Below are positions 55,217 to 57,798 of a stretch of DNA of 64,000 nucleotides, piece after piece; the stretch's first letter is position 1, and each line of letters begins with the position of its first letter. The translations under genes and the position numbers were made by a program. This stretch comes from Chitinophagaceae bacterium IBVUCB2 (GTDB lineage: Bacteria > Bacteroidota > Bacteroidia > Chitinophagales > Chitinophagaceae), in NCBI GenBank assembly GCA_002127295.1, contig NFUV01000001.1:2180538-2244537 (forward strand). The letters are read 5' to 3'. A model generated the notes under the pieces. It did no database searches. It saw only the letters and a list, made by a program, of their open reading frames with translations, and was not told the DNA's origin.

Positions 55217-57079
55217 ATGAAAAAATGGTTATTTATTTTCTTATTGCCGATACTGGCTTTTACTTATAACGAAGAGCCGCAAAGCTGGATTCGTATTAAT
55301 CAGCTTGGCTATACTCCGGATGGAGTGAAAGTAGCGATTTGGTGTAGCAAGCAGCAGTTAGCCCTTAGCAGTTGGCAGTTGGTAGATGCGGTTTCAAAAA
55401 AAGTTGTTTCTTCCGGCAGTTCAGGAAAAGCATTTGGTACTTACGGACCTTTTAAAGAAACATATCGCTTAAACTTTTCTTCTTTTAAAAAACCCGGACG
55501 ATATTATTTACAAGCTGGCGGTGCTACATCACCAGAATTTACCATTGGCGATGATGTATATAAAGGAGCCGCCGATTTTTGTTTGCGTTATATGCGGCAG
55601 CAACGAACCGGTTTCAATCCTTATTTAAAAGATAGTTGCCATACACATGATGGCTATGTATTGTACGGAGAAAAAGCAGGAATAAAAGACAGTACCAGAA
55701 TTGATGTGGTAGGTGGCTGGCATGATGCGTCTGATTATTTGCAATACTCAACAACATCTGCGAATGCTACTTATCATTTGCTGATGGCCTACCGTGATTT
55801 TCCCAAAGTATTTACAGATGAAAAACAAGCCAATGGTTTGGATGGAAAAAATGGAATGGCAGATGTACTCGACGAAGCAAAATGGGGATTGGATTGGTTA
55901 TTAAAAATGCACCCGAGAGAAGATTGGATGTTTAACCAGATTGCCGACGACCGTGACCACATGGGTATGCGCATACCCAAGCAAGATACTTTTTATGGAA
56001 GAGGATTTGAACGGCCTGTATATTTTGTAAGTGGCGAACCACAGCAGCGGGGAAAGTTTATGAATAATACAACGGGAACAAGTTCTACGGCGGGGAAGTT
56101 TGCAAGTGCTTTTGCATTGGGAGCCGAAGTGTATAATGGTGTAGATACTATATATAGTGACTTATTACTTAATAAAAGCTCGTCAGCATTTTCGTTTGCA
56201 GTTAAAAAAAATGGTGTAACACAAACAGCTTCTGTAAAATCACCTTACATCTATGCAGAGGATAATTGGGTTGATGATTTAGAATTAGCAACTGCCACGG
56301 AAGCCTCTGCACACAAAGTGACTTGGAAAAGAAGAATGAGCAGATTGATACAGTATACAAAGACACATAAAGATGGATATCATTTGCCAAACCCTGGTTT
56401 GTTTATTGGAGGCTCTTACACCTATGCTAAGCAAGAACCCATCACTCCCTGGCTTGGTTCAGATACGGCGAAACATTATCAATGGTATCCATTCATCAAT
56501 ATCGGCCATTATGAATTAGCCAAACAATTAAAAGATAAAAGACGAGATACAATCATCAGTTACTATAAAGAAGGTATTGAGAGAGTTTGGAACAAAGCCC
56601 AGCAAAATGCTTTCTACCGTGGCGTTCCATTTATCTGGTGCAGTAATAATCTCACTACATCATTTGCTATTCAATGTTATTGGTATAGAGAATTAACTGG
56701 CGATAAACAATTCTCAGAATTAGAACAAGCAAATTTCGATTGGTTATTCGGGTGCAATCCTTGGGGCACAAGTATGGTCTATGGCCTGCCCTCATGGGGA
56801 GACACACCTGTTGACCCACACTCTGCATTCACTCACATAAAAAAATACCCGATTGATGGCGGATTAGTGGATGGTCCGGTTTATGGAAGTATTTATAATA
56901 ATCTCATCGGTATTAAATTATACGAACCGGATGAGTATGCAACTTTTCAAAGTGGCTTAGCGGTTTATCATGATGATTATGGTGATTACAGTACCAACGA
57001 ACCAACAATGGATGGAACTGCTTCATTAATTTATCTATTGGCTGCGAAGGAGGCAGAAGCTAAGCCAAAAAAGAAATAG
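55217..57079 (+). CDS. GH9 endoglucanase, frame open to a -1 fusion with a deacetylase
   Basis: A 620-residue exported enzyme of glycoside hydrolase family 9. Signal peptide about 1-17; an Ig-like CelD_N domain 'IRINQLGYTPDGVKVAIW' (about 24-105); then the (alpha/alpha)6 catalytic domain. Catalytic residues: Asp170 and Asp173 in 'GGWHDASDYLQYS' and Glu595 in 'STNEPTMDGTA'. 'WLFGCNPWGTSMVYGL' is also typical. The C-terminal 'AKEAEAKPKKK' ends on a slippery A AAA AAG with a hairpin after it, and the -1 frame continues into the deacetylase (see the site entry). GH9 enzymes cut beta-1,4-glucans. Here the target may be cellulose-like plant or algal matrix. Confidence 0.93.
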   Translation: MKKWLFIFLLPILAFTYNEEPQSWIRINQLGYTPDGVKVAIWCSKQQLALSSWQLVDAVSKKVVSSGSSGKAFGTYGPFKETYRLNFSSFKKPGRYYLQAGGATSPEFTIGDDVYKGAADFCLRYMRQQRTGFNPYLKDSCHTHDGYVLYGEKAGIKDSTRIDVVGGWHDASDYLQYSTTSANATYHLLMAYRDFPKVFTDEKQANGLDGKNGMADVLDEAKWGLDWLLKMHPREDWMFNQIADDRDHMGMRIPKQDTFYGRGFERPVYFVSGEPQQRGKFMNNTTGTSSTAGKFASAFALGAEVYNGVDTIYSDLLLNKSSSAFSFAVKKNGVTQTASVKSPYIYAEDNWVDDLELATATEASAHKVTWKRRMSRLIQYTKTHKDGYHLPNPGLFIGGSYTYAKQEPITPWLGSDTAKHYQWYPFINIGHYELAKQLKDKRRDTIISYYKEGIERVWNKAQQNAFYRGVPFIWCSNNLTTSFAIQCYWYRELTGDKQFSELEQANFDWLFGCNPWGTSMVYGLPSWGDTPVDPHSAFTHIKKYPIDGGLVDGPVYGSIYNNLIGIKLYEPDEYATFQSGLAVYHDDYGDYSTNEPTMDGTASLIYLLAAKEAEAKPKKK

Positions 57080-57096
57080 CCTCCGGTTCAGGAGGC
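57047..57096 (+). promoter_or_regulatory. Candidate programmed -1 frameshift site
   Basis: In the GH9 frame the sequence reads CCA AAA AAG AAA TAG. The heptamer A AAA AAG (57067-57073) is the canonical bacterial -1 slippery site. After a 5-nt spacer, GCCTCC (57079-57084) and GGAGGC (57091-57096) form a 6-bp GC stem with loop GGTTCA. An SD-like AAGGAGG lies at 57047-57053, 13 nt upstream of the heptamer, as in dnaX. A -1 slip leads, with no stop, into the deacetylase frame, giving a fusion of about 860 residues. The alternative is a missing A in a homopolymer. Confidence 0.55.
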
Positions 57097-57156
57097 CTTA
57101 CTTACAGTCGTGGTGCTATTATTCGGGGCGACAGTACACAAAAAAATATTGCATTA

Positions 57157-57798
57157 GTGTTTACGGGAGATGAATTTGGAGAAGGCAGTGGTTTTATAGC
57201 TGAAACATTGGACGAAGAGAAAGTAAAAGCTTCTTTTTTTCTTACGGGTAGATTTTATCGGAACAAGGATTTCAAAAAACCTATTCAGCAACTAAAAAAG
57301 AATGGAAATTATTTAGCTGCCCATTCCGATCAGCATCTATTGTATTGCGATTGGATTAAACGGGACAGCCTGTTGGTAACAAAAAAGCAATTCAGTTTTG
57401 ACCTGGCGGATAATTATACCAACATGGCCCGTCATGGGATCAATATTAAAAAAGCAACTTATTTTTTGCCTCCTTATGAATGGTATAATGATACCATTGC
57501 TGCATGGACAAAAGACCTGAAACTGCAATTAATCAACTTTACACCCGGCACACTCAGCCATACCGACTATACCACCAGCAAGGATAAGAATTACCGCAGT
57601 AGTGAAACTATTTTCAATTCAATCATGAATTATGAAAAGCAAAAGCCAACCGGATTAAATGGTTTTCTCCTGTTGATGCATATTGGAGCCGGGCCCGATA
57701 GAGCGGATAAATTTTATAAATACCTGCCCCGTTTAATCAAAGAGTTGAAAGCCAAAGGCTATCATTTTCAAAGAGTTGATGAGCTTTTAAATCTTTAA
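57157..57798 (+). CDS. Polysaccharide deacetylase (NodB/CE4-like), probably the C-terminal part of a GH9 fusion
   Basis: A NodB-fold domain. The metal-binding 'TGDEFGEG' occupies the place of the TFDDG motif, 'AAHSDQHLLYCDW' supplies the HxxxH, and 'YFLPPYEWYND' and 'LLMHIG' are the later motifs. The nominal start is a GTG inside the first conserved strand ('NIALVFTGDE'). The frame is open from 57064, and the upstream in-frame residues 'GAIIRGDSTQKNIAL' belong to the domain, so GTG 57157 cannot be the biological start. There is no ATG, GTG or TTG before it and no signal peptide. I infer it is made by frameshifting from the GH9 gene. The substrate is probably an acetylated glycan. Confidence 0.75.
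   Translation: MFTGDEFGEGSGFIAETLDEEKVKASFFLTGRFYRNKDFKKPIQQLKKNGNYLAAHSDQHLLYCDWIKRDSLLVTKKQFSFDLADNYTNMARHGINIKKATYFLPPYEWYNDTIAAWTKDLKLQLINFTPGTLSHTDYTTSKDKNYRSSETIFNSIMNYEKQKPTGLNGFLLLMHIGAGPDRADKFYKYLPRLIKELKAKGYHFQRVDELLNL

Follow-up and report, generated by a model that had tools for sequence, protein, structure and literature searches.

In the window (the whole 64,000-nt stretch of DNA analyzed here), a GH9 gene is followed by an open reading frame for a NodB-like deacetylase domain that lies in the −1 frame relative to it (Table 1). The domain assignments come from Pfam: the first frame matches Glyco_hydro_9 (PF00759) at 226.7 bits, against a curated cut-off of 27.7, as well as CelD_N, and the second frame matches Polysacc_deac_1 (PF01522; CE4/NodB) at 39.9 bits, against a curated cut-off of 23.1. 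The hydrophobic N-terminus of the GH9 protein looks by eye like a putative signal peptide. The GH9 gene ends CCA AAA AAG AAA TAG, with the heptamer A_AAA_AAG in phase; an AAGGAGG precedes the heptamer by 13 nt, and a 6-bp GC stem starts 5 nt past it, with its arms, GCCTCC (57079-57084) and GGAGGC (57091-57096), enclosing the loop GGTTCA. From 57064 the −1 frame stays open through the whole deacetylase, up to a stop codon at 57796-57798, and the post-shift reading would comprise 241 codons (57073-57795). The earliest ATG, GTG or TTG in this frame is GTG 57157. These features had been listed in the initial annotation, where GTG 57157 was described as the only possible start for the deacetylase, and direct reading of the DNA bears all of them out.

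Table 1. Features of the GH9–NodB locus in window coordinates (class I, the sequences that share the stem cassette)
Feature	Position	Strand	Basis
GH9 gene (CelD_N + Glyco_hydro_9), 620 aa	55217..57079	+	ORF reading and Pfam; product of normal termination
SD-like AAGGAGG, 13 nt 5' of heptamer	57047..57053	+	GGAGG core in 10/10 class I
−1 frame: linker + NodB-like (Polysacc_deac_1) domain	57064..57798	+	ORF reading and Pfam
Slippery heptamer A_AAA_AAG, in the GH9 frame	57067..57073	+	Direct reading; A-run 57067-57072, then G57073
Zero-frame stop TAG, one codon past heptamer	57077..57079	+	Direct reading
Stem-loop GCCTCC-GGTTCA-GGAGGC, 5 nt 3' of heptamer	57079..57096	+	Third positions of 4 conserved codons invariant in ten sequences
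Predicted GH9–NodB fusion, 860 residues (619 frame 0 + 241 frame −1)	55217..57798	+	Inferred

Relatives of the gene pair

How is the junction arranged in other genomes? A search with the NodB stretch across 394 family genomes gave matches in 152; the matches listed, which leave aside the weakest, were all examined with their upstream DNA, except for contig-end fragments in two genomes (G297 and G328). The best 80 of 98 relatives in a further contig collection were also taken. Together these gave 237 loci with NodB, 203 of them distinct after removal of duplicates. GH9 and NodB share one open frame in 134 of the 203 and lie in different frames in 20; among the remaining 49, no GH9 was found in the available DNA for 47, GH9 is a separate gene in one (L103), and one has a same-frame break (L144). 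“One open frame” was decided at the junction, such that the 134 include six rows with fewer than 250 GH9 residues, mostly at contig ends, and two loci (L062 and L084) that each have an additional break inside GH9. Two of the in-frame fusions, without the stem cassette, come from the same genus as the window (L004 and L007). A search of 298 genomes of the order, outside these counts, found matches in 43, with 8 outside the family; five loci beyond the family were examined, and GH9 is in the same frame in three of them and was not found in the other two. As a separate observation, NodB relatives in five genomes (L066-L070, in G305, G229, G008, G231 and G303) have frames of 625-675 aa with no upstream GH9 match, possibly representing NodB joined to another partner.

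All 20 out-of-frame junctions are shifted by −1, and none by +1. Nineteen of the 20 have a slippery run. The remaining one, L051 (G255), is also shifted by −1, has no A-run, and was rejected as a case of recoding: the indel lies upstream, in an LIYLL stretch, and its siblings are intact, so it is likely a mutation or an assembly error.

Ten of the shifted junctions, including the window, share the stem cassette and make up class I. Seven of these (L001, the window itself, L002, L003, L253, L015, L018 and L024) fall in genera g1, g28, g60, g84, g87 and g94, and three (L075, L076 and L077) are the records JALHNJ010000004.1, LNFJ01000076.1 and JAHEMM010000078.1. L075, the nearest relative of the window, comes from a separate assembly and has a NodB 91% identical; some other class I loci lie on large contigs (5.1 Mb in G321, 4.5 Mb in G160 and 2.7 Mb in G027). 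The layout is nearly constant. The heptamer is A_AAA_AAG in eight sequences and A_AAA_AAA in two, the zero-frame stop follows it after 0 or 1 codon in 10/10, and GCCTCC/GGAGGC begins exactly 5 nt past it in 10/10, with a loop of 6 nt (eight sequences) or 3 nt (two). The distance from GGAGG to the heptamer is 13 nt in eight and 16 nt in two. By comparison, the stem is absent from 117/117 fused rows that could be parsed (17 of the 134 could not). The initial annotation had asked whether relatives keep six A with a stem or are in-frame fusions, and the answer is both: the cassette is shared by ten, but most relatives are plain fusions (134/203). Evidence of one kind that the annotation had named against a programmed frameshift thus applies in part.

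Within the 4.0-Mb genome, GCCTCCN3-9GGAGGC is found at 4 places; of the three besides this gene, two are perfect palindromes. With four sites, the idea that the stem is a dispersed repeat was rejected. The longer pattern AAAAAARN5GCCTCCN3-8GGAGGC occurs at 21 sites in 20 of the 394 family genomes, and 7 of the 21 are the GH9–NodB gene, while its reversed control gave 0 among the matches listed for these genomes. Thus, the cassette pattern exceeds chance expectation. Frames of the matched strand were examined around 11 of the 14 sites outside the GH9–NodB gene, and none of these 11 has an open stretch longer than 50 codons leading up to the match.

The second class of shifted junctions (class II) comprises nine sequences (L013, L032, L033, L041, L042, L043, L044, L090 and L102). 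The run is A9 in eight and A10 in one, with a zero-frame stop 0-1 codon later, and both the GCCTCC stem and GGAGG are absent from all nine junctions. The class II frames are probably joined by slippage of RNA polymerase, ribosomal slippage being the alternative. Long runs also occur among the 134 fused linkers, where the longest A-run is 6 A in seven, 7 A in one, 8 A in three and 9 A in eight. In six of the eight in-frame A9 fusions, a stop comes no more than two residues into the frame that loss of one A would open, and in 8/8 both other frames have stops within 10 codons; in other fused linkers, a stop within three codons in the one-A-loss frame is found at a rate of 186/1643. This excess is suggestive only, because the eight fall in few lineages.

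A FastTree tree of 154 sequences requires at least 14 changes between shifted and fused states. In a smaller tree, of 39 rows surrounding class I and without four short rows, the class I label requires 7 changes, at least 4 of them forced by well supported branches; shuffled labels give a mean of 9.0 changes and as few as 7 in 39/500 shuffles. The scatter of class I on the tree, together with its constant layout, suggests an old cassette. An old cassette that was converted several times to an in-frame fusion would be a simpler account than a cassette invented several times, although the tree is blind to gain versus loss. A separate feature of the in-frame fusions is that GC-rich palindromes (e.g. 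CCCTCCGCAGGAGGG) are found in the coding linker of L004, L006, L017, L030 and L035. These resemble dispersed Bacteroidota repeats, and the GH9–NodB junction may be a site tolerant of repeat insertion.

Selection on RNA and protein

Where all ten class I sequences conserve the amino acid of a four-fold codon, the third base is invariant at 4/4 positions in the stem (GCC, TCC, GGA and GGC) and at 0/69 outside it (0/23 in NodB and 0/46 in GH9). Since the silent sites of the stem are frozen, this pattern indicates that selection acts on the RNA; a protein linker by itself would hardly keep those positions fixed at such divergence. The stem pairs never vary, and therefore there are no compensatory changes to count. 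By folding energy alone the stem does not stand out: a 68-nt segment of the window has a z-score of −1.09, with 26/200 shuffles folding equally well, and across the ten sequences, z-scores over 45 nt lie between −0.01 and −2.25. The support for the stem is its conservation.

The evidence for the upstream SD-like element is weaker. The Glu codon within GGAGG is GAG in 10/10 class I sequences, where GAG makes up 25% of the Glu codons in those genes. This is weak support for an SD element, because invariant two-fold codons are not rare: 16/80 in GH9 and 5/45 in NodB, two of the latter five being the slip-site AAA AAA. GGAGG is associated with the shifted state in the clade (10/10 versus 4/26; Fisher 4e-6 with kinship ignored), but after correction for kinship the association loses significance (p 0.125; 4 independent pairs, of which a mean of 3.8 go in the expected direction). 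The upstream GGAGGC might pair with the stem's 5' arm instead of serving as an SD, although the downstream hairpin is kept in the minimum-energy folds of three sequences.

Both encoded domains also appear to be maintained. For five pairs of class I sequences, three of which share members and all of which have high silent distances (0.73-1.54), dN/dS is 0.10-0.14 in GH9 and 0.06-0.19 in NodB; a sixth pair, L002-L018, has saturated silent sites and gives no value. One class II pair has values of 0.05 and 0.10. These ratios indicate purifying selection on both GH9 and NodB in the pairs tested.

Proposed mechanism and rival explanations

What joins the two frames in class I? Very probably, a conserved dnaX-type programmed −1 ribosomal frameshift links GH9 to the NodB-like domain. 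This had been proposed for the window in the initial annotation, and the heptamer, stop, 5-nt spacer, stem and frozen silent sites conserved in ten sequences argue for it. A ribosome translating the GH9 mRNA would reach A_AAA_AAG, where tRNA-Lys (UUU) could slip back by one base and pair again. The ribosome would be held at the heptamer by the GC-rich hairpin that starts 5 nt downstream, possibly helped by pairing of the upstream AAGGAGG with 16S rRNA. A fraction of ribosomes would shift to −1 and read on into the linker and NodB-like domain to produce an 860-aa fusion, while unshifted ribosomes would stop one codon on and release the 620-aa GH9 protein. The same annotation had predicted two products from one gene, a GH9 of 620 residues and a fusion of about 860, and the frame relation (−1 in 20/20) and dN/dS are consistent with that. 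Slippage itself, its rate, the element that stimulates it, the export of both forms and the importance of both products are inferred. Frameshifting is not needed for a useful protein, because 134/203 relatives have the two domains in one frame.

The possibility that the true gene is an in-frame fusion, altered in the window by an error of sequencing or assembly or by a recent disabling mutation, has points in its favor: the one-frame state is the commonest (134/203) and is found within the genus (L004 and L007), and the unrelated L051 does resemble such a mutation. Nonetheless, it has virtually no chance of being correct, given an identical junction and layout in ten distinct sequences, shifts that are all −1, frozen silent sites in the stem, and low dN/dS on both sides of the junction. 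For class I, the cassette common to ten sequences and the frozen silent sites of its stem lead us to reject a frameshift that arose by sequencing error or mutation. The caveat in the initial annotation, that a one-base homopolymer deletion in a true fusion would look the same, thus falls for the class. It is also highly improbable that NodB is a separate protein produced by translational coupling or by reinitiation past the GH9 stop, even though the slight overlap of the frames is compatible with coupling, GGAGG lies upstream, and L018 has a GTG three codons past the slip. An independent deacetylase start, which the initial annotation had named as evidence against a frameshift, is not conserved among the relatives: the NodB frame has no conserved ATG, GTG or TTG, none follows the slip in the stretch examined in L077 (58 codons), L013 (54) or L042 (52), and the counterpart of GTG 57157 in L075 is not a start codon. 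Moreover, initiation at GTG 57157 in the window would drop conserved residues (GAIIRGDSTQKNIAL), and the product would have no signal peptide.

A further explanation takes the hairpin for a transcription attenuator or REP-like repeat and has RNA polymerase slip at A6 to join the frames. Other GC-rich palindromes are found in the same linker of the in-frame L004, L006, L017 and L035, and polymerase slippage is plausible for nine other relatives with A9-A10 junction runs. For the window, however, this is a quite improbable account. Six A is a short run for slippage by polymerase, for which PMC3711429 cites An with n > 7, and shorter than the run of at least about 8-9 A taken for poly-A slippage; the nine class II runs have that length. 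In addition, the motif is not dispersed in the genome (4 places), and the constant 5-nt spacing fits an element positioned by the ribosome.

Is the host equipped for dnaX-type frameshifting? A tRNA search, in which 150 of 239 first-look candidates were scored, gave at least 37 tRNA matches, and ARAGORN finds among all 37 one tRNA-Lys, with anticodon TTT, and none with CTT. A single lysine tRNA reads both AAA and AAG in about half of known bacteria, including E. coli (PMC5009743). As for the SD part, the anti-SD is described as sequestered via bS21 in Bacteroidia ribosomes, with an exceptionally strong SD at rpsU (PMC9976891). In agreement with that description, the S21 gene of the host (rpsU, PF01165; L292, G000:C2:665623) has GAAGGAGGTATAAA upstream, a strong GAAGGAGGTAT. 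A putative prfB (L320 around 1501; G000:C1:11582), its identity taken from its sequence, has AGGAGGTTTCTTTGAC at an in-frame TGA with an internal AGGAGG, which is the layout of an RF2 +1 frameshift; frameshifting at the prfB motif is described as inefficient in Flavobacterium johnsoniae (PMC12421855). The 16S gene ends in ATACCTCCTTTTTA, with CCTCC kept. With the rpsU SD, the prfB layout and the retained CCTCC, GGAGG could act during elongation in this host. Even so, the SD part is the weakest element of the model.

A broader reading can be put forward, although it is unlikely. The GH9–NodB gene of Chitinophagaceae would be a two-product gene in which recoding has persisted and been re-established through interchangeable routes: slippage of the ribosome with the stem and the GGAGG, slippage of RNA polymerase at A9 with a frame-0 stop, or A9 with a frame-0 fusion and stops in the other frames. 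The class I GGAGG would act in elongation though ignored at initiation, perhaps chiefly on bS21-free ribosomes. If the bS21-free-ribosome part is true, enzyme architecture would follow ribosome state.

Comparison with known systems

Programmed frameshifting in prokaryotes is known mostly from mobile elements and from few cellular genes (PMC3711429), so that a conserved instance in a chromosomal gene for an enzyme is worth having. The closest parallel is E. coli dnaX, which likewise combines A_AAA_AAG, a downstream stem-loop, an upstream SD, one tRNA-Lys, and a short and a long product; the difference is that the shift yields the short product in E. coli dnaX, whereas in GH9–NodB the short product comes from frame 0 and the long one from the shift (PMC5009743; further dnaX comparison facts are from PMC4066793). 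Also unlike E. coli dnaX, the gene here encodes a GH9–NodB enzyme and belongs to a Bacteroidota host with poor SD use. In “reversed” dnaX genes, e.g. in Chlorobium, as described in PMC3711429 and PMC5009743, the stop for the short product adjoins the slip site and −1 gives the long product, as here, and relatives again have other arrangements of the same gene; however, this is a different gene, mostly with longer poly-A runs, whereas class I has an A6-A7 heptamer with a stem. The poly-A slippage described for Thermus thermophilus dnaX (PMC5009743) is resembled by the class II A9-A10 junctions and the in-frame A9 relatives, but it is not the mechanism proposed for the window, with its six A. 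The magnesium chelatase cluster in PMC3711429 is similar in having two ORFs, −1 recoding at an A-run, and natural fusions in relatives; the protein is different, and the runs tested there were A7, A9 and A11. Finally, fucA of Saccharolobus solfataricus, which encodes an alpha-L-fucosidase, is a glycosidase gene expressed via programmed −1 frameshifting (PMC8037382), and hence a claim to the first glycoside hydrolase would be wrong. fucA is archaeal, and the shift interrupts a single enzyme, whereas GH9–NodB has two domains as alternative products.

The mechanism proposed here is thus dnaX-like and already known in kind, with no earlier report found for the GH9–NodB family. The main text of PMC3711429 does not mention glycosyl hydrolase, cellulase, deacetylase, Chitinophaga or Niastella, and, outside the supplementary cluster tables of PMC3711429 and PMC4066793, none of the papers listed by full-text searches, judged on the title and the opening of the abstract, is about recoding in this gene.

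What are the implications of recoding at this junction? In annotation, the gene would probably appear as a GH9 and an orphan fragment of a deacetylase. Both forms of GH9, the one linked to a NodB domain and the one that lacks it, may be useful. The family provides a natural series, from ribosomal cassette through poly-A to plain fusion, for the gain and loss of recoding, and the cassette offers a direct test of an internal SD-like element in elongating Bacteroidota ribosomes with a sequestered anti-SD.

Classical CE4 members have a TFDD motif (motif 1) and HxxxH metal ligands. HSDQH is present in the window NodB; the TFDD position reads FTG(D/H)E, i.e. FTGDE or FTGHE, across the ten class I sequences (57157-57177 in the window) and aligns with TFDNG of 2j13. 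The catalytic base of class I NodB may be missing or moved.
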